From: an uncultured Sulfitobacter sp.
GTDB taxonomy: Bacteria; Pseudomonadota; Alphaproteobacteria; Rhodobacterales; Rhodobacteraceae
Direction: 5' to 3'
DNA: 64,000 bases
Assembly: GCA_938003685.1 (NCBI GenBank)
Contig: CALKXT010000041.1
Span: 1 to 64,000, forward strand
How positions within the stretch are numbered: position 1 is the first letter of the stretch; every line of letters begins with the position of its first letter. The translations under genes and the position numbers were made by a program. This document shows, piece after piece, positions 11,546-25,269 of the stretch. The notes under the pieces are model-generated. The model was not told the origin of the DNA and did not search any database. It saw only the letters and a list, made by a program, of their open reading frames with translations.

Positions 11546-12715
11546 ATGATCGATATCGAAAAAGCCCGTTTGGACACCCCGAGCTGTGAAAACGTGCTGC
11601 ATTTTAACAACGCTGGTTCGTCGCTTATGCCGGTGCCAGTTTTTAACGCGCTCCAACGTGTGCTGCGTGATGAATATGAGGTCGGTGGATATGAGGCTGC
11701 AAGGCGGGCAGAGGACGATCTGCAAGCTTTCTATATGGAGTTTGCCGGCCTTTTGAATGCCGAACCGGACGAGATCGCATTTGTCGAGAATGCAACCCGC
11801 GCATGGGATATGGCATTCTACGGTTTGCATCTAAAGCCGGGAGATAGGGTTATTACCCACGCATCCGAATATGCGTCTAATTACCTCGCGCTTTTACATC
11901 AATCACGTCGACTTGGCTTTGAAATTGACATCGTGGCTTCGGATCAATCGGGGCAGATCGATGTTGACGCGTTGGACAATATGATCGGAGCAAATACAAA
12001 ACTAATCGCGATCACACATGTTCCAACGCAAGGTGGCTTAGTGAACCCTGCCGCAGAGGTAGGGAAAATTGCGCAAAAACATGGCGTTCTTTATTTGCTG
12101 GATGCGTGCCAATCCGTTGGTCAAATTAATGTTGATGTCGCTGAAATCGGGTGTGATATTCTGTCGGGCACAGGACGCAAGTTTCTACGCGGTCCAAGAG
12201 GCACGGGGTTTCTGTACGTCCGCAGAGGGATCATCGACCAGATAGACCCACCCTTCATTGATCTTTTTTCTGCCAAGTGGACTGAGGCGAACAGTTTTAC
12301 ATTAGTTGATGGTGCAAAACGATTTGAAAACTGGGAAAGCTTTGTTGCGGGCCGCGTTGGTTTGATGGAAGCTGTTCGGTATGCACGAAACATCGGGCTT
12401 GCCAACATTGAGGCCCGCGTGAGTGCGCTTGGGCAAGACCTGCGTGATGCGCTTTTGGAGGTGAAAGGTGTATCAGTGCATGATCTTGGTCTGAAGAAAT
12501 GCGGGATTGTCACGTTCAAGAAAGATGGGATCGACCCCGCACTCATGGGGGACACCCTTCGGGGCGACGGAATCAACGTGTCTACTTCTCAAATGACCTC
12601 GGCGCGCCTTGATCTTGAGCCACGCGACCTCAAGGCTTTGACGCGGGCATCCGTTCATTACTTCAACACGCAAGATGAGATTACTCGATTTGTTGAGGCT
12701 GTGAAAAAGGCATAA
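11546..12715 (+). CDS. Class V aminotransferase (cysteine desulfurase/selenocysteine lyase-like)
   Basis: A 389-residue PLP enzyme. Cofactor residues are recognisable in HFNNAGSSLMP, THVPTQGGLVNP, LLDACQSVGQ (the PLP-binding Asp) and GTGRKFLRGPRGTGFLYV (the Schiff-base Lys). The overall pattern fits the Csd/isopenicillin-N-epimerase-like branch rather than housekeeping IscS. No sulfur-carrier gene is adjacent. It lies about 400 bases upstream of the VioB-like cluster in the same direction; whether it belongs to that pathway cannot be decided from sequence. Confidence 0.88.
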   Translation: MIDIEKARLDTPSCENVLHFNNAGSSLMPVPVFNALQRVLRDEYEVGGYEAARRAEDDLQAFYMEFAGLLNAEPDEIAFVENATRAWDMAFYGLHLKPGDRVITHASEYASNYLALLHQSRRLGFEIDIVASDQSGQIDVDALDNMIGANTKLIAITHVPTQGGLVNPAAEVGKIAQKHGVLYLLDACQSVGQINVDVAEIGCDILSGTGRKFLRGPRGTGFLYVRRGIIDQIDPPFIDLFSAKWTEANSFTLVDGAKRFENWESFVAGRVGLMEAVRYARNIGLANIEARVSALGQDLRDALLEVKGVSVHDLGLKKCGIVTFKKDGIDPALMGDTLRGDGINVSTSQMTSARLDLEPRDLKALTRASVHYFNTQDEITRFVEAVKKA

Positions 12716-13116: not shown

Positions 13117-15081
13117 GTGAGTCTATTTGACTACCCACGCATTAATTTTACGGGGACTTTGACCCTTAACCCCGGTACGGCCAATAACGATGATTACTCT
13201 GGACGCTGGCATGATCCAACAAACGGGGCAAACCTTGCGCTAATCGATTCAGCAACGGTTCAACCTATTACCAATGGGTTAAGCGACACGGAGTTTCTGG
13301 ATTGGCTTCAAAAAGAGCATACCTTTGAGCCGACAAATGGTACTGGATCGCCGCGTAAATTCATTCCTGCCGAATGGAACTATTACGGCAATATGAGCTC
13401 TAAAACGCTGGCACAGATCACGGGTGTTCAGACGGATGCGCAAAGTACTGCGACCACGGATGCTGCTTATAGCCAGTTGATCGGTAAACCAATAAACATG
13501 TCGGGAAATATCACAGACGTGAATTCCGAAGGTTCGCCTCCCGGCACTCAATTTTTCCTCAATCATTTTTCGCTCAAGGCGGGTGATATCGAAATATCTG
13601 GCACGCCCGATAAGGCTGCGTGTCAGTGGATCAACTTCGCCCGAAACGTAAACATGCAAGGCGATGCTGGCGCTGGCGGGTATATGTATCACGTCATTAG
13701 GGACGGCACGGTCAAACTGCCGGGTTTTGAAGATCAGAACCCGATTGGCATGGTGTTGCGGTACTATGTGTATGCCAAGCACAATTCGTTAGGTAACTCT
13801 GCTGATATTCTGGACCGGTATGCTGAAAAAAAGACAAACCCAGCCGACTTTCAGATCACTGGCACTCTTGCGCCATTGTTTGCGCATGAGACCAGTCTTA
13901 CTGGCCCGGTTGGACGTTTACTGGCCTGTGATGTGCCTAATATTGATGTGCCCGAGGGCAAACGGAACAATACTTCGAATGGAAAGCTGGCTCTTGCCCC
14001 GGCGGTTGTATCTTGCACGGATGACTTGATCAGTGTTGATTTTATGGGCAGTTTTCCTGAGGAAATGGTAGGCACCTTCCCGTCACAACCAGCCATCAAC
14101 GATCCTGCTTGGGACAAGCCGACCCTAAAGAATCCCAAGTTTATCTTTGGTGATGTGATGCTGACTTTGATCAGCGGGTCTGACCGCGTCGACATTGCGA
14201 ATGTCCCATATCAAGATACCGCAGCTGGAAATGCCCGAGGGTGGCTATTTGATTTTGATATATCCAGCAATGAGGCAGCGACCAAAATGTTGGCCGACCC
14301 GGATGCTATTTTTAGCCTCAATAGCGCGGCCTATGGTGACGTTTTGCAAGAAACGGATTATTATTTCGTAACCAATCAGCAAGCGGTTTATGCGGAGCAG
14401 GGCGATACGACGGATACCTATGTGAACCAAGGCCTGCCCAGAGAAACGGCTGAATTCTCAGTTTACCATCGGGGTAAACAGCTTTCGGCGGCAGATACAC
14501 CCCCGGTCACCGTGTGGGGTTACAAGGCCACACCACTTGGCGATTCCGGCGCGCGCACTGTGCTGTATGAGAATTTCGATCCCGGTGCGCCTTTGTCGCT
14601 TCATCCGCCACTCGCCAAAGATTTTTTCCAGCCCGGCACATATTACCTGACCTTTGGCGTCGAGGGCGCAACAGGTCCTACATCGGGTGATCCGCCTGAT
14701 ACCTATGCCAAATACATCGATGCGCCGTTTACCGTGCTGACCAACCGGACCGGTATCAGTATCCGCGTCTTACCAAACGAGGATTTCAGCGATTATTTGA
14801 TCCAAGGGAAAACGGGGCTGATCACAAAACCTGATGTGACGTTTGATTTCGTATATCAAAACACGCTGCGCACCTATGACCTATTGTTTCCAGCCATGCA
14901 TGCGGTTTTCCCACTTAGCAACGAGAGTGTGATTGGCGCAATGGCGCAAAGTATCCTGCAGCGTACCGACCTTAATTTATGGGGAAATACTGGTTTCATG
15001 CCGATCACACGCGATATGTCAGAAAGCCGGCGTGCGCTGCTGCAAGCGTGGTGTCGTGGGGTTTTAGAAAAGAAGTCATAG
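13117..15081 (+). CDS. VioB N-terminal-half-like protein, copy 1
   Basis: A 654-residue cytoplasmic protein (no signal peptide or membrane helix) starting at GTG behind a strong GGGGAG site. Its start MSLFDYPRINFTGTLTLNPGTANND matches the way VioB begins (short strand, PRIxFxG, then TANxD, from memory). Its end also parallels the end of the VioB N-terminal half: ISIRVLPNEDF, then FDFVYQNTLRTYDLLFPAM, then GFMPITRDMSESRRALL. It lacks the ferritin-like half of VioB, which is encoded separately at 17043. VioB, RebD and StaD couple two imine forms of oxidised tryptophan. Whether this protein shares that chemistry or is a structural subunit is not known. Confidence 0.75.
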   Translation: MSLFDYPRINFTGTLTLNPGTANNDDYSGRWHDPTNGANLALIDSATVQPITNGLSDTEFLDWLQKEHTFEPTNGTGSPRKFIPAEWNYYGNMSSKTLAQITGVQTDAQSTATTDAAYSQLIGKPINMSGNITDVNSEGSPPGTQFFLNHFSLKAGDIEISGTPDKAACQWINFARNVNMQGDAGAGGYMYHVIRDGTVKLPGFEDQNPIGMVLRYYVYAKHNSLGNSADILDRYAEKKTNPADFQITGTLAPLFAHETSLTGPVGRLLACDVPNIDVPEGKRNNTSNGKLALAPAVVSCTDDLISVDFMGSFPEEMVGTFPSQPAINDPAWDKPTLKNPKFIFGDVMLTLISGSDRVDIANVPYQDTAAGNARGWLFDFDISSNEAATKMLADPDAIFSLNSAAYGDVLQETDYYFVTNQQAVYAEQGDTTDTYVNQGLPRETAEFSVYHRGKQLSAADTPPVTVWGYKATPLGDSGARTVLYENFDPGAPLSLHPPLAKDFFQPGTYYLTFGVEGATGPTSGDPPDTYAKYIDAPFTVLTNRTGISIRVLPNEDFSDYLIQGKTGLITKPDVTFDFVYQNTLRTYDLLFPAMHAVFPLSNESVIGAMAQSILQRTDLNLWGNTGFMPITRDMSESRRALLQAWCRGVLEKKS

Positions 15082-15182
15082 ATTTCGGGAGCGATCAAAA
15101 TTGGGGTGCTGTTAACTGAATTTAACCAACGGCATGCCTGAGGAAATAAGACGAATTAATTAATATTATAAAGGATTTTGAC

Positions 15183-16529
15183 ATGATTTACGCTAAACAA
15201 GTAACCGGAATGGCGGCGTGTACCGTCGCGTTTTTGGGTTTAAGTGCCGCACCAAGTTTCGCGGATGGTGCATGTGTTGCCCCGTCCAGTTGGACATCGC
15301 ATGATGCGGTACCAGCCCCCGACAATTCAATTGCACCACAAACAAATTGTGATTTCCATGTTTGGTCGTGGAACACGTTTCTTTGGATGACGCAGCCGGA
15401 CAGTGACGGCGACCTACGGTTCCAGAACTTTGCGACACTTGATGAACTCTTTGATCCGGCCCCGATGAAGACTGAATTCAGTGCGCTTTCGCTTGATAAA
15501 TCGTTTGTTCTGGCACCGCGTGCGCTCAAGCCCCAAGCGTTATCAGAAGATGCTTTGCTGGCGCTTGAACCCACCAAAACCAATAAGGCGGCTCTTGCGA
15601 GTGTACAGGATATTGGAGAGATTAATCAGGCAGGATCTGCGGGCGTTTTGGTGCGGCGTGGTGCAGATGACCCAACCAGCGGCCGCGCGGTTTATTATTC
15701 ATTGAATGTTGACCCAGTGTACTACAATTTTGTTCGAGAAAATAAATACTACGATGTTGCGACATACTTGGCAGCACCTGATGATACGAACTTTGCTGTT
15801 GGTTCTGCCGAATTCAAATATTCATGGATGGTCGTTGAAGATGGCGAAGATGTCAGCGATTTCTTTACTGTTGATGCGGAAATTGTCCAGCTTACCACCA
15901 ACAAAGACGGTCAGGTTGTGCCCGACCCCACAAAACTGATCCCTGCAACGGTTGCCTTGGTTGGCATTCATGTGGTCGGTGTGGTTGAGGATCACCCGGA
16001 ATTCATCTGGGCAACATTCGAGCACAAATCAAACTCACCTGACCTTCCTCATGGGATGGACCCTAAGTCTACAGACCCAGTGAGCAGCGAGGATTGGACG
16101 TTTTACGCAGCAAATACGCCTGCCAAAGACAGCAATCTAATTGATGACACCAATAACCTTAAATTCGCGGACGAAAGCGCGCAAACGCTTGAGCCTGTGG
16201 TCAATGTGTTTCGCGAATATGCGTGGGGGACCGACCTTGATGACCCCTCTGGTCCGGCCAACGCCGCTAACATTCAGTCGCTTAATCAAAGTGTGCTTTC
16301 AGGCACTTTGTCGGGGGATTCCGTTTGGAATAACTACCACTTGATTGGTGCAGTTTGGGGTGATGGTGACCTTCAGCCCAAGTCCATTGTCACGCCTATC
16401 GGTTCGACGAAACTGTCCAACTCCACGTTGGAGACATTTACCCAGCAGTACAGCCAATGTTTCTCGTGTCACACGACCTACAACAAGAACATGGATATCA
16501 GCCACATCATGAAACAGCACGCTGAGTGA
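15183..16529 (+). CDS. Exported protein with one C-terminal c-type heme motif
   Basis: A 448-residue protein with a Sec signal peptide (VTGMAACTVAFLGLSAAPSFA) and a single CxxCH motif, CFSCH, at about residues 426-430. The central 350 residues, including HVWSWNTFLWMTQP and later FIWATFEHKSN, match no enzyme I know. It should be a periplasmic monoheme protein, perhaps an oxidase or electron carrier. It sits between two genes for cytoplasmic proteins of the VioB-like set, in the same direction and about 100 bases after the first. This suggests that the pathway has a periplasmic step, consistent with the ebo genes further on. Confidence 0.8.
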   Translation: MIYAKQVTGMAACTVAFLGLSAAPSFADGACVAPSSWTSHDAVPAPDNSIAPQTNCDFHVWSWNTFLWMTQPDSDGDLRFQNFATLDELFDPAPMKTEFSALSLDKSFVLAPRALKPQALSEDALLALEPTKTNKAALASVQDIGEINQAGSAGVLVRRGADDPTSGRAVYYSLNVDPVYYNFVRENKYYDVATYLAAPDDTNFAVGSAEFKYSWMVVEDGEDVSDFFTVDAEIVQLTTNKDGQVVPDPTKLIPATVALVGIHVVGVVEDHPEFIWATFEHKSNSPDLPHGMDPKSTDPVSSEDWTFYAANTPAKDSNLIDDTNNLKFADESAQTLEPVVNVFREYAWGTDLDDPSGPANAANIQSLNQSVLSGTLSGDSVWNNYHLIGAVWGDGDLQPKSIVTPIGSTKLSNSTLETFTQQYSQCFSCHTTYNKNMDISHIMKQHAE

Positions 16530-16582
16530 TCTTTAAACAAAGCTTTTAAAACGACGAACATTTTACCAAAGGAGATACTATT

Positions 16583-16873
16583 ATGGCCGATCCAGTCAGC
16601 TATGCCAGCCAGATCAAACCACTTTTTAACCCGCAGGACATCGGTTGCATGTCGGGTATGGGCGTCAAACTTGATGACTATACTTGGATGTCTGACCCTA
16701 CTGGTGGCGCGATGGGAAGCTGCACCGATTTTCCTGATCACATGAATGGGCGTTCTGTCTATGCGAAGCTTACAGGTGAATGCCAGCCCAAGATGCCACT
16801 GGGCGGCGCACCGTGGGATCAGGCGTCTTTGGACCTCTATAACCAATGGATGCAGGACGGATTTCAGCCGTAA
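16583..16873 (+). CDS. Small soluble protein resembling a heme-less cytochrome c domain
   Basis: A 96-residue protein preceded by a good AAGGAG site. It starts DPVSYASQIKPLFNPQDIGCM, which looks like the first helix of a cytochrome c domain. Where CxxCH would be expected it reads CMSGMG, so heme cannot be attached in the usual way. It ends with WDQASLDLYNQWMQDGFQP, like the last helix of such domains (a PPxG...W motif followed by a tryptophan-rich helix). There is no signal peptide, so it is probably cytoplasmic. It may be a small partner of the ferritin-like protein encoded next. Confidence 0.7.
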   Translation: MADPVSYASQIKPLFNPQDIGCMSGMGVKLDDYTWMSDPTGGAMGSCTDFPDHMNGRSVYAKLTGECQPKMPLGGAPWDQASLDLYNQWMQDGFQP

Positions 16874-17042
16874 CGCCTGATTTGTATCAAGCATCGGGTC
16901 GGCATGATCTGGATTTTTAGTGCCGGCTCGCCTTTAGCAATAACAGCTTTTTGATGTCTGATTGATGATCCAGCCAAACCCATAGGGTGTCGCGTAAGGC
17001 GCGACTGAAACGAATTTAAACAGCCAATTTGAGGGGGAAGAT

Positions 17043-18086
17043 ATGATTAAACTAAATTGGAAAGAACCGGATAGTATTGATGATGTGCGGCTGCTTGTGC
17101 AGACGGCTATTGATCTGGAGTTCTCTACTTTACCGCCTTACCTCTATGCGCTGTTTTCAATCCGACCGGAAACAAATGTTCCCGTATTTGAGCGCCTGCA
17201 CGAAGTGATCATGGAAGAAATGACTCACATGTGCTTGGCCTGTAATATCATGAACGCGATTGGCGGCAGCCCTGCAATCAATGCACCGACGTATCCCGGG
17301 CCGTTGCCGGGGGATGTTGATGCAAGTCTGACAGTTCACCTGTTGCCTTTATCCGAAGCTGCAATGCAACAAGGCATGGCCATCGAAGAGCCATCTGAAG
17401 CGATTGACCCACCTGTGCTGGCAATTGCTGCCACCGCTGAGCCGAATGTGACAATTGGCGAATATTACGAACGCTTGGATCAAGCTTTGCAAGCACTGCC
17501 AGCGTCCGCGTGGACTGCCAATCGCAATCAAGTTGATGATGCGCAGTTTTTCCCGGGCGAGATATTTGCGGTCAACACTTACGAAGATGCGCACAAGGCA
17601 ATTGATCAAATCGTTTCCGAAGGTGAAGGCACGCCAGTCAGCCCAAACTCGCCGGGCAGTCCGCTCGATTTTCGCGAAGATTTGGCGCATTATTATCGGT
17701 TCTGGGAAATCGCGCGCAATCAGGTTTTGGTCAAGGATGATAACCCTGTAGGTTTTGCGTGGGGCGCACCATTGGGCGTGGATTGGGACAATGTGTATCC
17801 TGCAATCCCTGATCCGCAATTGTATGATTTTTCAAATGAATCACAAGCGGTTCAGGTTGCGCAGATGGCGTGCAATGGGGCTTACACGGGCATGATTTAC
17901 ATGCTGAAGGATGCCTTTAATGGTGTTGTCGGTGGCATGGGCCTTGCCGTGCGGCAAATGTTCGATCTCAGAATGGCGGCCCATGCGGCGCTCAAAACGC
18001 CCCTTGCTGACGGTGTGTCCGTGGCGGGACCTGCCTTCATCGATCTTAGCAAACAACCAGCCTCAAGCGGAGGAACTCCACAATGA
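17043..18086 (+). CDS. Ferritin-like protein resembling the C-terminal catalytic half of VioB
   Basis: A 347-residue protein. Its first helix pair, LLVQTAIDLEFSTLPPYLYALFSI followed by HEVIMEEMTHMCLACNIMNAIGG, has the ligands expected of a ferritin-like metal site: Glu26, Glu59 and His62 (ExxH). It closely parallels the start of the VioB C-terminal half, which also has an LELS..LQYLYA...EEMIH pattern. A further HYYRFWEIARNQ segment around residues 215-225 may supply the remaining ligands. VioB carries this domain at the end of a chain of about 1000 residues; here it is a separate polypeptide. Its stop overlaps the start of the second VioB-N-like gene (ATGA), which argues that the two proteins work together. 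Confidence 0.8.
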   Translation: MIKLNWKEPDSIDDVRLLVQTAIDLEFSTLPPYLYALFSIRPETNVPVFERLHEVIMEEMTHMCLACNIMNAIGGSPAINAPTYPGPLPGDVDASLTVHLLPLSEAAMQQGMAIEEPSEAIDPPVLAIAATAEPNVTIGEYYERLDQALQALPASAWTANRNQVDDAQFFPGEIFAVNTYEDAHKAIDQIVSEGEGTPVSPNSPGSPLDFREDLAHYYRFWEIARNQVLVKDDNPVGFAWGAPLGVDWDNVYPAIPDPQLYDFSNESQAVQVAQMACNGAYTGMIYMLKDAFNGVVGGMGLAVRQMFDLRMAAHAALKTPLADGVSVAGPAFIDLSKQPASSGGTPQ

Positions 18087-19942
18087 GCGTACTTGAAATT
18101 CCACGGATTTACTTTGGCGGCGACATTGCATGGGATCCGGTTACAACCAATAATTATCCCGTAACACAAGCGCCAGCAGCCTATGACGAAGACGGCTGTG
18201 AAGCGACATTGAACCAGACAAACGTGAACGCAAGCAAGGTTGCCGGTTTTCGCAAAGCTGCAATCGATGAGGTGGTCAGTTCTGGAAATTGGAACCCTGA
18301 TGGCACATATCGGTCGCCGTTTTTCAATACGCAGATCACAGGTGTGGACACCGGCAATGGCCTAGATATCACTGATCCCTTTGTGTCTGCACCTGTCGAC
18401 TTTACAGGCATGTTGGTTGATGCAGAGCCATACGGGGCGTATTCGTCACAATTGTTCTTTGACGATATCAGCTTTGGCATTGATGGTGGTTGCCGCGTCT
18501 TTGGTAAACGGATGCAGCGTTTCAGTGACCGCTATATCAACTTTAGCGCCAACCCCAATAATTCGATGATTGCTGGCGTCGCGTCGGTGATGTGGCAGAC
18601 TTGTTTTCCCAAGGATGAAGGGTTGCTTATTAATACCTATGGTTCTGCCGCATTGGGCGCACTTGAGGGTTTGATGACAGATGATGATGTCATGGGCGTT
18701 ATGGTTCGTTTTTGCACGTACCGTACGGTGTATTACGATGATCCCACGCTTTCCAATGGATCCGCAGCGACGGCTGCTGCTGGGGCGGCATTGCAGGCGA
18801 AACTAAATGCGGGTGGCTTCCAACCCAATCCAGCGCGCAGCAAATTGGTTGGAACAATTGGGGTGTGGCGGCGCGCTGATGCGGTGCATGAACCGGGTGA
18901 TCGCGCGTTGTTGACGACCAACCAGCCAATTACAAAAGATATGCCAGCAAGAAGCCCTGCAATATGCGGCACGGCTTTTGCGCGGGTTGGTGCGGACCGG
19001 ATCACCCTTGATCTGTCCAATTGTATCCCTGCAAAAAACCGCGACGCTGAAAAGGTCGATCTAAATGATTTGACCCTCGTTGCTGCTGATCCTGCGCCTG
19101 CTGTGGCGGTTATGGAAGTCGCGACGATACCGTACAGTGACTATAACAAAGCCGCCTATGATAAGACCTCTGGTATTATCGACATTACGATTGATCCGGG
19201 TCTTGCTGAGACCTTGAAGGGCATGAACCTAAGTCTGAAATCAGCAACGGCGACCTATCTTGAAGAAGCACCACTGCGCGCGATTTCTGACAGCCCTAAC
19301 TGCTATCTTGATGAAGGTACATCGGGCAGCACCACAGTACAGGTGTATGAGCGTGGTTTACCAGCCGGCGCTGGCGTTAGTGTCACCATGTCTGAATTGG
19401 GTGCATCACAACCTACCGCGGTTCGTCAGACAACGGATTCAAAAGGACAGGTTAGTTTTGCATTGTCTGCAAGTGCGGGCAATGTAACTGGGCTTGTCTT
19501 TCAGCCCGGGCCAAATCCGACGCTCCCGGTAACCAACCGGAATTTCAGCACACAACTATATACCTATATGTACCTTCGCGTCTTACCTGCTGATGCAGAC
19601 ATAGCCGCACTGCCCGCAACATGGGAGAATGTGCACAACCACGTGCTGGCCAATTGGGAGGCGATGGCCCCCTGCATGGATAACTGGCTACCTTTGGGCA
19701 ATGAGGCAAAAGTAAAAGCTTATGCGCCAATTATTAAGCAACTGACAGACCCGGATAATTTTGAGGATTTTCGCTTTATGCCGGTGACCCGCGACATGAC
19801 CCCGGGACAGCGCACCTTGCTGTATAAATTCCTAGATGGGGATAATGGCAAAGCCCTCACGGCCAAGATTGGTGCGTCGCAGGATGACGCGGCCCCTAAG
19901 CAGGATTTCCACAAGTTGAGCCGTGCGATGCGTGGCACCTAA
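18083..19942 (+). CDS. VioB N-terminal-half-like protein, copy 2
   Basis: A 619-residue soluble protein that starts SVLEIPRIYFGGDIAWDPVTTNNYP and ends with YLRVLPADADIAALP, then VLANWEAMAPCMDNWLPLGN and FRFMPVTRDMTPGQRTLLYKFL. These are the same landmarks as in copy 1 and in VioB. The middle part includes a GIWRRADAVHEPGDRALLTTNQP-type stretch, comparable to the VGLWRRGE segment of VioB. It is diverged from copy 1, so the two are probably not interchangeable. Coupled to the ferritin-like gene by a four-base overlap, it is the better candidate for that protein's direct partner. Confidence 0.77.
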   Translation: MSVLEIPRIYFGGDIAWDPVTTNNYPVTQAPAAYDEDGCEATLNQTNVNASKVAGFRKAAIDEVVSSGNWNPDGTYRSPFFNTQITGVDTGNGLDITDPFVSAPVDFTGMLVDAEPYGAYSSQLFFDDISFGIDGGCRVFGKRMQRFSDRYINFSANPNNSMIAGVASVMWQTCFPKDEGLLINTYGSAALGALEGLMTDDDVMGVMVRFCTYRTVYYDDPTLSNGSAATAAAGAALQAKLNAGGFQPNPARSKLVGTIGVWRRADAVHEPGDRALLTTNQPITKDMPARSPAICGTAFARVGADRITLDLSNCIPAKNRDAEKVDLNDLTLVAADPAPAVAVMEVATIPYSDYNKAAYDKTSGIIDITIDPGLAETLKGMNLSLKSATATYLEEAPLRAISDSPNCYLDEGTSGSTTVQVYERGLPAGAGVSVTMSELGASQPTAVRQTTDSKGQVSFALSASAGNVTGLVFQPGPNPTLPVTNRNFSTQLYTYMYLRVLPADADIAALPATWENVHNHVLANWEAMAPCMDNWLPLGNEAKVKAYAPIIKQLTDPDNFEDFRFMPVTRDMTPGQRTLLYKFLDGDNGKALTAKIGASQDDAAPKQDFHKLSRAMRGT

Positions 19943-19980: not shown

Positions 19981-21852
19981 GTGAAGCATCTCGACCATTC
20001 TCACGTGCCTAAGCCGCTTGCGACTTCATTGCGTTGGCTGGTGATATTCGGTTTGCTTGTTACCGCTTTGATTGTGCCATTCTTATTGTTCGAAATGCAG
20101 ATTGAGGCATTTGCAATCAGGACACTCAACACCTCACCTAGCACAGGGCAACTGATTGCGCTTATTGGGGGGGCGCTGGCGTTTGATGTTATTCTGCCGG
20201 TGCCTTCCAGCATCGTAAATGCGGCGGCGGGTGCTGCGCTGGGGTTTGTGGTTGGAACACTGGTATGCTGGTTTGGCATGACTTTGGGCTGTTTGTTTGG
20301 CTATTGGATCGGCGCGACGGGCGGGACATCACTGGTGCGTCGATTGCTAGGTGCTGACGAATTGGACCGCGCAAAAGACATCGCGCACAGCATGGGGATT
20401 CCGGCGCTTATTGCCATGCGCGCAGTTCCTGTATTGGCTGAGGCGTCTACCATTGCTGCGGGTGCTGCGCGCTTGCCACTTGCAAAGTTCCTACCAACCG
20501 TCGCTATCGCCAACCTTGGTATCGCGGCTGTTTATGCGGGGATTGGCGCGTTTGCTTGGTCTGCAAATTCGTTTCTGTTGGCGCTTGCCGGTGCGATTGG
20601 CGTGCCTGTGGTGGCATATGCATTGCTTCGCGTGAGCGCACGTTGGACAGGTATCGCGGGCAGCATGAAAGGCGTTATGGTGCCACGTTTGGCCACGCAA
20701 ACGGATCAAGTATTCTCAATAGATTACAGCTATAAGGTCGCCTTCACACGTGGTCTGTTTCAGGATGACAACCCGACACTGGCCGATACGCTGACTGCGA
20801 AAAGCAACGGCCCAGCCCGCTGTATTGTCTTTCTAGATAGCGGTGTTGCTGCGTCTGACGCACCGCTACTGCATACAATCCAAAGTTATTTTGCCTTGCA
20901 CAAGAACGACATTCAGTTGCTTGATGAGCCTCAGATCGTGCCCGGTGGTGAAACCATAAAAGACGGATTGGCGCAGATATCAGCGATCTATGAGACCTTG
21001 CAACGTAACGGCGTTGATCGACATGCTTACGTTATTGCCATTGGTGGTGGTGCGGTGCTGGATGCCGTTGGATTTGCTTCTGCTACGGCGCATCGAGGCA
21101 TCCGCCACATTCGCGTACCGACCACTGTTCTTAGCCAAAATGACAGCGGCGTCGGGGTTAAGAACGCAGTGAACTTTAACGGCGTTAAGAATTATGTGGG
21201 CACCTTTGCCCCGCCCGAGGCAGTGTTGAACGATTTTGACTTTCTAGCGGCACTGCCCAAACGTGAACGCATCGCTGGTTTGTCAGAGGCGGTAAAGGTC
21301 GCGTTGATCCGGGACGCTGATTTTTTCCACTGGCAAATGTCCAACTGCGATGCGCTTGTGTCCTTTGATCCAGATGCTGAGGAACATATGGTGCGCCGTT
21401 CAGCTGAGCTGCATATGCACCAAATCTTAAACAGTGGCGATCCATTCGAAAGTGGCTCTGTGCGACCTTTGGACTTTGGTCATTGGTCTGCACACCGCTT
21501 GGAATCGATGAGTAATCATGCGCTAAGCCATGGGGAAGCCGTTGCAATTGGGATCGCATTAGATGCGCGATACTCTGTGCTTTCAGGTCTCTTAACGGAA
21601 AGTGAAAATGAGAAAATCATCACCCTGCTTGACCGACTTGGCTTGCCGACATGGCATCCCTTGCTGGAGCAGCGGTGTGTGAATGGCATCCACAAGGTTC
21701 TGCGCGGTTTGCATGATTTTCAGGAGCATTTGGGAGGCGAGTTGACGATCACGCTTCTGCAAGGGATAGGCAAAGGCCACGAAGTCCACGAGATGGATTA
21801 TAATCTGGTCGTGCAAGCGATTGACTGGCTCAAAGATCGAAAGGCGGACTGA
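19981..21852 (+). CDS. eboD: EboD-like sugar-phosphate cyclase (3-dehydroquinate synthase family) fused to a VTT/DedA-like membrane domain
   Basis: A 623-residue fusion starting at GTG, 11 bases after GGAGG. Residues 1 to about 225 form a VTT/DedA-like membrane domain (LPVPSSIVNAAAGAALGFVVG, a glycine-rich GYWIGATGG and MRAVPVLAEASTIAAGA). Residues from about 250 on are a dehydroquinate-synthase-like cyclase: AIGGGAVLDAVGFASATAHRG binds NAD, VPTTVLSQNDSGVGVKNAVN lies in the active site, and DFGHWSAHRLE and LSHGEAVAIGI give metal-binding histidines. EboD proteins are normally the cyclase alone, as far as I know. The fusion would fix the enzyme at the inner membrane, in keeping with the proposed transport role of ebo genes. 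The substrate is unknown. Confidence 0.83.
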   Translation: MKHLDHSHVPKPLATSLRWLVIFGLLVTALIVPFLLFEMQIEAFAIRTLNTSPSTGQLIALIGGALAFDVILPVPSSIVNAAAGAALGFVVGTLVCWFGMTLGCLFGYWIGATGGTSLVRRLLGADELDRAKDIAHSMGIPALIAMRAVPVLAEASTIAAGAARLPLAKFLPTVAIANLGIAAVYAGIGAFAWSANSFLLALAGAIGVPVVAYALLRVSARWTGIAGSMKGVMVPRLATQTDQVFSIDYSYKVAFTRGLFQDDNPTLADTLTAKSNGPARCIVFLDSGVAASDAPLLHTIQSYFALHKNDIQLLDEPQIVPGGETIKDGLAQISAIYETLQRNGVDRHAYVIAIGGGAVLDAVGFASATAHRGIRHIRVPTTVLSQNDSGVGVKNAVNFNGVKNYVGTFAPPEAVLNDFDFLAALPKRERIAGLSEAVKVALIRDADFFHWQMSNCDALVSFDPDAEEHMVRRSAELHMHQILNSGDPFESGSVRPLDFGHWSAHRLESMSNHALSHGEAVAIGIALDARYSVLSGLLTESENEKIITLLDRLGLPTWHPLLEQRCVNGIHKVLRGLHDFQEHLGGELTITLLQGIGKGHEVHEMDYNLVVQAIDWLKDRKAD

Positions 21853-23040
21853 ATGAAGCTGAGCGGATCGCAAGGTCAGCTGACCTATTGTATGAACATT
21901 CATCCCACACAGACATTTGACGATGTGATGGCAGCCCTGACTGGTCCGGTTGCCGAAGTTAAAAAAGCGATATCACCTGATGCGCCATTTGCCGTGGGGC
22001 TGCGATTTTCTGGTGAGGCGTTAAGTGAACTTGCTGATCCCGGAAAACGTATGGCGTTGAAATCTGTGCTTGATGCGAAAGGCTATCACGGGATTACTGT
22101 CAACGGTTTTCCTTATGGAAAATTTCATGGGACAAAAGTCAAGGAAGAGGTCTATCAGCCGGATTGGCGCAGTGAAGTTCGTGTGAAGTACACGAACAAC
22201 TTGGCTGACCTTATGGCTGAAGTCGCACCTGTAGGTGAGTTTGTCAGTCTCAGTACAGTGCCGGGCACATTCAAACCTTTGGCCGCTGGGGCCGAGGCCA
22301 TAATGGCTGAAAACTATCTTCAATCGGTCGCACATTTGATCAAGTTACGCGAACGCACAGGTGTTACAGTAGCTTTGGCAATCGAACCTGAACCCGCGTG
22401 TTTTTTGGAAACCATCGCAGAGACGGTTAACTATTTTCGCGACTATTTGTTTAGTTCAGACGCGGCTGACCGGGTCGCTGGTTTGACGGGTGTGTCTGTG
22501 GCAGAAGCCGCCCAAGCGCTGCCGCAACATTTGGGTTTGTGTTATGATGTTTGTCACGCAGCCGTTGAATTTGAGGACCCAGAGCAAAGCATCGCTTTGT
22601 TGCGTGACGCAGGTATTCCAGTTCATAAATTGCAGCTAAGTGCGGCATTACGTGTCGCAATCGTAGGCCCAGAGGCGCGCAGCGCGATGGCGGATTTTGT
22701 TGAGCCTACGTATCTTCATCAAGTTATCCGCCGTACATCAGATGGTATGAAAAGCGCGACAGACCTGCCCGAAGTATTGGCGTTGGGTGATGCGACGGAT
22801 GGAGAGGAATGGCGCGTCCATTTCCATGTTCCGGTCTACATCGACAATCTGGGTGCGTTCTCATCGACGCGGAATTTCTTGGAAAGCATCTTGGCAATTC
22901 ACAAGCAAACGCCGATTTCTCCACATTTGGAAATCGAGACTTACACATGGGACGTTTTGCCTGCCTCAGCGCGCGGTAAAACTGTTGCACAAGACATCGT
23001 GCGCGAGATGCGCTGGGTTATGGATCAATTAGATACATGA
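21853..23040 (+). CDS. eboE: EboE-like metabolite traffic protein (xylose isomerase-like TIM barrel)
   Basis: A 395-residue protein of the sugar-phosphate isomerase/epimerase-like barrel fold, with LTYCMNIHPTQTFDDV at the N-terminus, VALAIEPEPACFLET as a metal-ligand strand, HLGLCYDVCHAAVEFEDP and VHKLQLSAAL. These are hallmarks of EboE. It starts directly after the eboD stop and overlaps eboC by four bases (ATGA). It contains no membrane segments. Its biochemical activity has not been established, as far as I know. Confidence 0.87.
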   Translation: MKLSGSQGQLTYCMNIHPTQTFDDVMAALTGPVAEVKKAISPDAPFAVGLRFSGEALSELADPGKRMALKSVLDAKGYHGITVNGFPYGKFHGTKVKEEVYQPDWRSEVRVKYTNNLADLMAEVAPVGEFVSLSTVPGTFKPLAAGAEAIMAENYLQSVAHLIKLRERTGVTVALAIEPEPACFLETIAETVNYFRDYLFSSDAADRVAGLTGVSVAEAAQALPQHLGLCYDVCHAAVEFEDPEQSIALLRDAGIPVHKLQLSAALRVAIVGPEARSAMADFVEPTYLHQVIRRTSDGMKSATDLPEVLALGDATDGEEWRVHFHVPVYIDNLGAFSSTRNFLESILAIHKQTPISPHLEIETYTWDVLPASARGKTVAQDIVREMRWVMDQLDT

Positions 23041-23879
23041 ATTTTCATACGTTCCTGAAATTGGGCCGCGTGTCCAACTTGCCAACTGTCTGGACCAATG
23101 CGCTGGCTGGGGCCGTTTTATCAGGGAACCCCACGGTTGCTGTAGTGTTTTGTTTGGCTGTTTGCCTATCGCTTTTCTATGTTGGCGGCATGTGGCTGAA
23201 CGATGCGTTTGACGCTGAGATTGATGCCCGAGAACGCACAGACAGGCCAATCCCAAATGGTGAGATATCAGTGCGGGCAGTCCTTATCGGTGGTTTCTCT
23301 TTCCTTGCTGTTGGTGTGATTTTTGCTTTTTGGCTTGGTATAGGTGCGGGGCTTGCAGGAATATGTCTAGCGGGTGTGATTGTGCTGTATGATTGGCTTC
23401 ATAAACGCACAATCCTTAGTCCCGTCATCATGGGGGGCGCTCGTTTCTTTTGCTATGTCGTTGCTGCCTTGGCTGTTAGTGGTGTCATATCAGGATATGT
23501 TATTTTGGGCGCTCTTGGATTATTATTATATACGGCTGGCCTGACTTACGCTGCAAAACAAGAGGCATATGATCGTCTTGATCGTGCTTGGCCGTTAGGC
23601 ATCCTTGCAATTCCACTTATCTACGCATTGACACAAGTTTCAAGTCTTGGGGCATTGGTCATTTGGATGGGCTTGCTTGTTGTTGTTTTGATGGCTTTGC
23701 GGCGCTTGTTTCGCCGCGACAAAGGCGACGTCCCCAAGGCCGTGGTGACCTTGATCGCGGGAATATCTCTTTTTGATGCGACTTTGATCGCGGGGGCTGG
23801 CGAAGCGATGTTTGCCTTTGTCGCTGTCGCAGGTTTTTTCCTGACATTAGCGTTGCAACGTGTCGTGACGGGAACCTGA
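23037..23879 (+). CDS. eboC: EboC-like UbiA family prenyltransferase
   Basis: A 280-residue membrane protein of the UbiA superfamily with about nine hydrophobic helices. The first aspartate-rich motif is clear in MWLNDAFDAEIDARERTDRP, and the N-terminal LGRVSNLPTVWTNALAG is typical. The second Asp motif is less standard (EAYDRLDRAWPLG). UbiA enzymes attach prenyl groups to aromatic or polar acceptors. The acceptor here is not known. It ends four bases before the end of the oppositely transcribed eboF. Confidence 0.88.
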   Translation: MNFHTFLKLGRVSNLPTVWTNALAGAVLSGNPTVAVVFCLAVCLSLFYVGGMWLNDAFDAEIDARERTDRPIPNGEISVRAVLIGGFSFLAVGVIFAFWLGIGAGLAGICLAGVIVLYDWLHKRTILSPVIMGGARFFCYVVAALAVSGVISGYVILGALGLLLYTAGLTYAAKQEAYDRLDRAWPLGILAIPLIYALTQVSSLGALVIWMGLLVVVLMALRRLFRRDKGDVPKAVVTLIAGISLFDATLIAGAGEAMFAFVAVAGFFLTLALQRVVTGT

Positions 23880-23883
23880 AAAG

Positions 23884-25269
23884 TCAGCGGAATACGTGAT
23901 CTAGCATCAATTTTTTGAATTCTGTCGCCTCTACAGGACCATCTGGCAGGAGCGAAGATTCTGATGAAATCACCAACGGTCCCTGGTTCGGATCATCGGT
24001 TATCCGGCCATGTGTACCTTTGACCAATTTAGTATCTTTCAACGAGATGACATCCATCAGTTGCCGCTGACCCAGCTTGCGTTTGGCCAGTTTTAAACCC
24101 GTTTGAAGCAAGGGAAACTTTATCTCCGGATCAATGAATAGCTCGACGGGATCATAACCGGGTTTGCGGTGTATATCGACGGTGCGGGCAAAATCTGGTG
24201 CTTTGTCGTCCTCCAGCCAATAGTAATAGCTGAACCAACGATCTGGTTTGCAAATTGCGACAAGTTCACCAGATCTTGGGTGATCAAGTCCGTTGGCTCG
24301 CTTGCCTTCCTCGCCCCAAACATCTTCGACGCCATCTAAGTCAGTTATCAACTTGGCGACTTTATCAATTCGCTTGGGATCTTTGACATAGATGTGCGCA
24401 ACTTGGTGGTCCGACATTGCAAAAGCATCTGATGCGCCCGCGTCCAATACTTCACGCCCAAATTCCTCTGGCCTGACGGCCAATAGCCCTGCCTCTCTTA
24501 GTGCGCGGTTAATATGCACGGCATCCCTTGCTTGCGTAATCCCATATTCGGAAACAACCACGACGCTTTGATCCGTGCGATCCGCAAACTCGATCAGTTC
24601 GCCACACAAGGCATCAACTTCGCGCAAATCTTGCTGTAATCGAGGGTGATCTAAATTCGGCCCCAGCCGTTGCAAGTTGTAATCTAGATGCGGCAAATAA
24701 GTGAGTGTCAGGGTTGGATTGCGCGTCTGCATTACGTGCAATGTGGCCTTTGAAATCCAATCTGAAGACGTAATATCGGCCACTGGCCCCCAGAATTTGA
24801 ATAATGGAAACTGCCCAAACTTTGCGTCTAATTCATCATGTAAATCCATGGGGTGCGCATAGTGATCGGGGATTTTACGACCATCAGCCGGATACATCGG
24901 GCGGGGTGTCGCGGACCAATCAGCACTTGAATACATGTTGTACCACCAAAACATCTTGGCGCAGGTAAAGTCTGGATCGCGGGCCTTACCTGCCTCCCAA
25001 ACCTTTTCCCCGGCGACAAGTTGATTTGGCTGCCGCCAAAGCAGGACTTCACTGAGATCGCGAAAGTACCAACCATTGGCGACGATCCCGTGATCTTTGG
25101 GGTTCAATCCAGTCAACAGCGTGGATTGAACCGTGCATGTCACTGCTGGAGTCACGGTGTTCAGCGGACGCATGCCGCCGCGTTTAACCAGTTTTTGTAA
25201 ATGAGGTGTATGCGCGCCCAACAAATGTGGAGAAAGGCCAACAACGAGAATTACCAATGTTTGTTTCAT
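23884..25269 (-). CDS. eboF: EboF-like alkaline phosphatase/phosphodiesterase superfamily protein
   Basis: A 461-residue protein of the nucleotide pyrophosphatase/alkaline phosphatase fold. The start VILVVGLSPHLLGAHTPHLQ is followed by TPAVTCTVQSTLLTGLNPKDHGIVAN, where the threonine nucleophile is expected. VVVVSEYGI and MSDHQVAHIYV supply metal-binding Asp/His positions in other members. The very N-terminal metal Asp common in this fold appears as Gly-Leu-Ser, so one metal site may differ. It is the only ebo gene on the minus strand here, facing eboC and diverging from eboA across about 98 bases. No signal peptide is evident. Confidence 0.85.
   Translation of the reverse strand: MKQTLVILVVGLSPHLLGAHTPHLQKLVKRGGMRPLNTVTPAVTCTVQSTLLTGLNPKDHGIVANGWYFRDLSEVLLWRQPNQLVAGEKVWEAGKARDPDFTCAKMFWWYNMYSSADWSATPRPMYPADGRKIPDHYAHPMDLHDELDAKFGQFPLFKFWGPVADITSSDWISKATLHVMQTRNPTLTLTYLPHLDYNLQRLGPNLDHPRLQQDLREVDALCGELIEFADRTDQSVVVVSEYGITQARDAVHINRALREAGLLAVRPEEFGREVLDAGASDAFAMSDHQVAHIYVKDPKRIDKVAKLITDLDGVEDVWGEEGKRANGLDHPRSGELVAICKPDRWFSYYYWLEDDKAPDFARTVDIHRKPGYDPVELFIDPEIKFPLLQTGLKLAKRKLGQRQLMDVISLKDTKLVKGTHGRITDDPNQGPLVISSESSLLPDGPVEATEFKKLMLDHVFR

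Follow-up and report, generated by a model that had tools for sequence, protein, structure and literature searches.

The locus described here raises the question why the gene of an exported protein with a single heme-binding motif should lie beside that of a small cytochrome-like protein devoid of this motif, both of them among VioB-like genes. We addressed this question in a 64,000-nt stretch of DNA from an uncultured Sulfitobacter sp. (referred to as the window). Both ORFs were found on the forward strand where the initial annotation had placed them. The first (15183..16529) encodes 448 residues, starts with MIYAKQVTGMAACTVAFLGLSAAPSFADG, judged by eye to be a Sec-type signal peptide, and carries CFSCH at residues 426-430. 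The second (16583..16873), preceded by a good ribosome-binding site (AAAGGAG), encodes 96 residues and lacks both a signal peptide and CxxCH. Neither ORF was named by any Pfam or NCBIfam model above its cut-off, and neither protein had relatives in the PDB by phmmer or by profile search. Judged by the homologues of the 96-residue protein (~30-50% identical, in three phyla) and of the exported protein (~15-50% identical), both ORFs are real genes; conservation across phyla rules out a spurious ORF or a chance occurrence. Homologues were absent from the viral and phage collections.

The gene pair in its VioB-like and ebo setting

The pair had been described as lying inside a VioB-like set, and it is indeed flanked by two proteins that resemble the N-terminal half of VioB and by a ferritin-like protein, all encoded on the forward strand. 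The gene order runs from VioB-like protein a (13117..15081, 654 aa) through the exported monoheme protein, the 96-residue protein and the ferritin-like protein (17043..18086; PF12902, E = 6.6e-54) to VioB-like protein b (18083..19942, 619 aa), the start of which overlaps the end of the ferritin-like gene, and continues with EboD-, EboE-, EboC- and EboF-like genes. The ferritin-like protein is probably cytoplasmic and a candidate partner of the 96-residue protein. As in the VioB/RebD-type imine-dimer synthases (TIGR04492; PF12902), VioB-N-half-like proteins and a ferritin-like domain occur together. Unlike these, the set in the window is split over three genes, its N-terminal half is duplicated, the monoheme and pseudo-cytochrome genes are inserted between, and the TIGR04492 matches are partial and far under the equivalog cut-off of 1250 bits (29.8 for protein a and 55.6 for protein b). 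VioB thus appears to be divided here (13117-19942) into two paralogous N-half-like proteins and a separate PF12902 protein for the remainder. A class-V aminotransferase or cysteine-desulfurase-like PLP enzyme upstream (11546..12715, forward strand; PF00266, E = 1.3e-62) is possibly the first gene of the set, going by its position.

The VioB-like set is followed by an ebo-type cluster (19981-25269). It consists of an EboD-like protein with a VTT membrane domain and a dehydroquinate-synthase-like domain (19981..21852; PF09335, PF01761, PF24621; PRK06203, 548 bits, cut-off 333), the metabolite traffic protein EboE (21853..23040; NF035939, 419 bits, cut-off 250) and an EboC-like UbiA-family prenyltransferase (23037..23879; NF035940, 110 bits, cut-off 250; PF01040, E = 7e-19), all on the forward strand, and, on the opposite strand, an EboF-like type I phosphodiesterase/nucleotide pyrophosphatase (23884..25269; PF01663, E = 3e-61). 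As in the ebo cluster described previously (PMC6282210), EboE is recognized above its cut-off and is accompanied by an EboC-like gene, here below its cut-off, and by EboD- and EboF-like genes identified by their domains. Unlike that cluster, the one in the window is joined to a VioB-like set, and its EboD is fused with the N-terminal VTT membrane domain. Ebo proteins help to export scytonemin precursors (PMC6282210).

The exported protein and the cytochrome P460 superfamily

The exported protein belongs to an unannotated family with at least 44 members (monoheme family), which had matches in 20 of 399 sampled Pseudomonadota genomes and further members on plasmids, one of them cyanobacterial. 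CxxCH is present in all 44 members, and K212, W215, H263, Y385, N413, E417, C426, C429 and H430 are invariant among them. In two loci (L008, 8205-12601; L009, 7884-12712) the monoheme gene directly precedes the gene of a LodA/GoxA CTQ oxidase, together with a flavoprotein in a LodB-like position, which suggests that this relative may be a periplasmic heme partner of LodA/GoxA quinoprotein oxidases. Neither these two loci nor a third with a tyrosinase gene (L015) contain the gene of the 96-residue protein (small gene).

The description of the protein as an exported monoheme, made from the sequence at the outset, holds by its signal peptide and CFSCH; in addition, the protein resembles cytochrome P460. 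Members of the cytochrome P460/c'-beta superfamily (PF16694) are likewise exported with CxxCH at the C-terminal end, and they share with the monoheme family, in the same order, an FPxG-x4-K motif containing the crosslink lysine and a WxxF core strand. When the profile of the monoheme family was aligned uncut with that of P460 by hhalign, the probability was 30%, which is too weak on its own. With an insert of ~125 residues cut out, the core reached 94.4% over 86 columns, compared with a maximum of 53% among 20 controls in which CxxCH was kept and the rest shuffled; CxxCH by itself can give up to 61%, as seen between the monoheme family and PSCyt1. The Pfam model PF16694 matched two of 42 family members weakly, with 19.7 bits at best against a cut-off of 27. 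In the profile alignment, K212 takes the place of the heme-crosslinking lysine of P460, H263 that of the distal carboxylate and CFSCH that of CxxCH. The crosslink lysine and distal positions of P460 proteins have been tabulated (PMC11928373, Table 2), and we located them by counting residues between this table and a PDB alignment (Lys106 of the Nitrosomonas sp. protein, NsP460). This coincidence of invariant residues with heme-pocket positions is the strongest argument for membership in the superfamily.

The two groups also differ. Unlike P460, the monoheme family is ~420 aa long including the insert, scores under the Pfam cut-off and has no link to ammonia oxidation; the carboxylate at the distal position of the hydroxylamine-oxidising P460 is not kept, and the invariant His263 stands in its stead. 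The AlphaFold2 model of the 448-residue protein, built from five input sequences, was poor (pLDDT 36), and the Foldseek list obtained with it was discarded as meaningless. The similarity moderately supports the view that the protein is a divergent member of the cytochrome P460 superfamily, and given the poor structure model we regard this membership as probable, not proven.

The protein might also be nothing but a c-type cytochrome that accepts electrons for a partner oxidase or dehydrogenase, such as a CTQ oxidase, a tyrosinase, a multicopper oxidase or a VioB-type enzyme, and not itself a P460-type enzyme. Relatives adjoining LodA/GoxA, tyrosinase and multicopper oxidase genes would fit such a role, as would a P460 similarity below the Pfam cut-off and the hhalign values attainable from CxxCH alone. 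However, Lys212, Trp215 and His263 are invariant in all 44 members although an electron shuttle would need neither the lysine nor the histidine at their P460-equivalent positions, and no invariant Met suited to be a distal ligand was seen in the family. We consider the role of an electron acceptor alone less likely than not.

The 96-residue protein and the PSCyt1 domain

The 96-residue protein is one of at least 34 members of a family (small family) from Alphaproteobacteria, Acidobacteria and Eremiobacterota; by tblastn and genome scans, Rhizobium plasmids were found to carry relatives, as were genomes of Rhodospirillales, Mesorhizobium, Eremiobacterota and Acidobacteria. Matches came from 28 of 200 genomes of one acidobacterial order; the weakest of them (E above ~1e-6) are long heme-bearing PSCyt1 proteins and not family members. 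The small gene is rare in the class of the window (two of 385 genomes), and a search of 35 further genomes of the genus did not find it in any. One copy (L026, 6674-6921) is frameshifted in its assembly, either by error or as a pseudogene, and one genome (G538) holds a diverged second copy with a degraded C-terminal half (L097, 5719-6033), ~17 kb from the intact one.

That this protein is cytochrome-like and heme-less, as the initial annotation had it, is backed by profile homology to PSCyt1 (PF07635), the planctomycete-type cytochrome c domain. The small family matched a profile of 33 heme-bearing PSCyt1 domains end to end, with an hhalign probability of 96.4% (E = 1e-9, 74 columns), compared with at most 1.3% for ten column shuffles and 0.07-0.33% for unrelated profiles. 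Masking CxxCH left the value unchanged (96.7%), and heme-bearing PSCyt1 proteins came up as hits in searches with the small family itself (E 7.5e-6 to 5e-4), while its best member, with 19.1 bits, missed the Pfam PSCyt1 gathering score of 22. By this profile match, both groups share an N-terminal helix, an MPP turn and a C-terminal W[MI]xxG helix. The AlphaFold2 model of the 96-residue protein, of moderate confidence (pLDDT 77), contains five helices (7-14, 17-24, 33-36, 56-64 and 80-91); Foldseek found no PDB match with it.

At the heme site the two groups diverge. The segment CMSGMG (residues 22-27), which had been proposed to stand where CxxCH would be expected, lies within DIGCMSGMG and thus at the right site, but its register was shifted: in the profile alignment Asp19 corresponds to the first Cys of CxxCH, Cys22 to the second and Met23 to the His ligand. 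The 96-residue protein consequently has D19-I-G-C22-M23 in place of CxxCH and retains the distal M71-P72. Across the 34 aligned members the motif reads D-[IV]-x-x-M, with Cys, His or another residue in the second Cys column; D19 is found in 33, M23 and M71-P72 in all 34. Retention of CxxCH among homologues, set beforehand as the outcome that would count against the assignment, was seen in none of the 34 members, and only the distant PSCyt1 domains keep it. Between the column of the His ligand (Met23) and the distal Met, the spacing is 48-53 for PSCyt1 versus 29-48 for the small family, in most members of which the heme-lining segment is up to ~20 residues shorter; we take this to mean that much of the heme-side loop has probably been lost. 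Unlike PSCyt1, the 96-residue protein therefore lacks CxxCH, the His ligand and part of this loop, has no signal peptide and stands alone instead of being fused to large secreted proteins.

The profile match, which persists with CxxCH masked, and the replacement of CxxCH by D-[IV]-x-x-M provide good support for a true pseudo-cytochrome family that would descend from heme-carrying PSCyt1-type cytochromes, and the loss of the heme-attachment motif is equally well supported by the alignment. No precedent for this family emerged from papers on PSCyt1 or on cytochrome c domains without heme. Covalent c-heme attachment takes place outside the cytoplasm, and cytoplasmic proteins cannot receive it, so that the missing signal peptide is consistent with CxxCH having been lost. 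By the same absence of a signal peptide, the 96-residue protein is predicted to be cytoplasmic; it could also be exported together with a Tat partner.

Could the small protein still hold a metal cofactor and serve the ferritin-like enzyme in the cytoplasm as a redox carrier or metal carrier? The cofactor would be either a non-covalent heme b bound through Met23 and Met71 or Cu(I) bound through Met, Cys or His. Heme b with two Met ligands is found in bacterioferritin. In favor of such a carrier, all 34 members have Met at both axial-ligand positions, ferritin-like genes often neighbor the small gene, and covalent c-heme is not available to cytoplasmic proteins. Against it, the segment lining the heme in PSCyt1 is curtailed in most members, position 22 may be any of C, H, A, G, T and E, and the family has neither an invariant Cys nor an invariant His. 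An invariant Cys/His metal site is ruled out by the variable position 22, and we regard a retained metal cofactor as improbable overall.

Recurrence and putative function of the gene pair

The pairing of small and monoheme genes is real and recurrent. The two genes are adjacent in seven loci (the window, L002, L003, L017, L018, L019 and L024), in varying order and with 4-base start/stop overlaps in L003 and L018; by background density, the chance of meeting a monoheme-family gene is ~1e-4 per 6 kb. A strongly diverged small homologue with a DVDHM or DVEHM motif lies less than 2 kb from the monoheme gene, one gene downstream and in the same direction, in three rhizobial plasmids (L006, L007 and L014) and in one genome (L184); in these four loci both genes share one operon. 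In L006 (9358-11087), L014 (8949-10602) and L184 (6636-8412), the gene in between encodes a YCF48/BNR-repeat-like protein, and in L006 a methyltransferase-like protein follows.

In Acidobacteria, a Ferritin_2 gene adjoins the small gene in L021, L022, L023, L093, L100 and L102, and canonical P460 genes lie close to it in L022, L023, L093 and L111, although some of these loci are kin to one another and not independent. A conserved acidobacterial cluster (L022, 4651-8243; also L023 and L093) comprises two cytochromes P460, a cytochrome c, Ferritin_2 and the pseudo-cytochrome. Many acidobacterial small genes and two in Hyphomicrobiales lie away from P460 and monoheme genes and have no Ferritin_2 gene nearby either; the pairing of small and monoheme genes is therefore not obligate. 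In an independent cluster (L178, 3056-13000), VioB-like and monoheme genes, two of each, occur along with genes for a strictosidine-synthase-like protein and for a type I phosphodiesterase related to the EboF-like protein of the window.

The remaining explanation, that two mobile accessory genes merely travel together and share no function with the VioB-like set, could draw on small homologues on conjugative plasmids, the empty search of the genus and partners that vary by locus, but adjacency repeated across phyla, the start/stop overlaps and the second association of VioB-like, monoheme and phosphodiesterase genes in L178 make it quite improbable.

Similar pairs in unrelated bacteria point to an undescribed partnership with a putative function in oxidative pathways. 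We favor, tentatively and at slightly less than even chance, a recurrent module that joins a heme-free cytoplasmic pseudo-cytochrome with an exported, divergent P460-superfamily oxidase. The location, the oxidation chemistry, the substrate and the partner of the pair are inferred, for the window as follows. The VioB-like/ferritin-like set would form an aromatic intermediate in the cytoplasm. The 96-residue protein, a PSCyt1-type domain that would have lost its covalent heme and shortened its heme-side loop but retained its helical core and MPP turn, would most likely act without heme as a subunit for binding or assembly; in the window it would serve the cytoplasmic ferritin-like/VioB-like enzyme. 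The ebo proteins may help to move the intermediate out of the cell, as with scytonemin precursors (PMC6282210), and the exported protein with its one c-heme, a Lys where the crosslink would form and a His at the distal catalytic site may oxidise the exported product in the periplasm. The initially suggested division of labour between one periplasmic oxidation step and one cytoplasmic accessory subunit appears plausible.

Most of what is known about P460 heme chemistry comes from nitrogen-cycling bacteria. That the exported family represents new, widespread Lys-crosslinked (P460-type) oxidases with a distal His, which would act in natural-product or protein modification and not in nitrogen oxidation, part of them with a cytoplasmic heme-free cytochrome descendant, is a more speculative proposal that we consider doubtful at present. 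If the family is P460-like, however, the crosslink lysine would be kept beside genes for LodA/GoxA-type oxidases, tyrosinase, multicopper oxidase and VioB-like proteins, which would extend P460 chemistry to other oxidations. The small family, in turn, would comprise cytochrome c domains that systematically lack heme, often still beside heme protein and ferritin-like genes, and may offer an example, open to testing, of a redox domain that took on the role of a partner protein.
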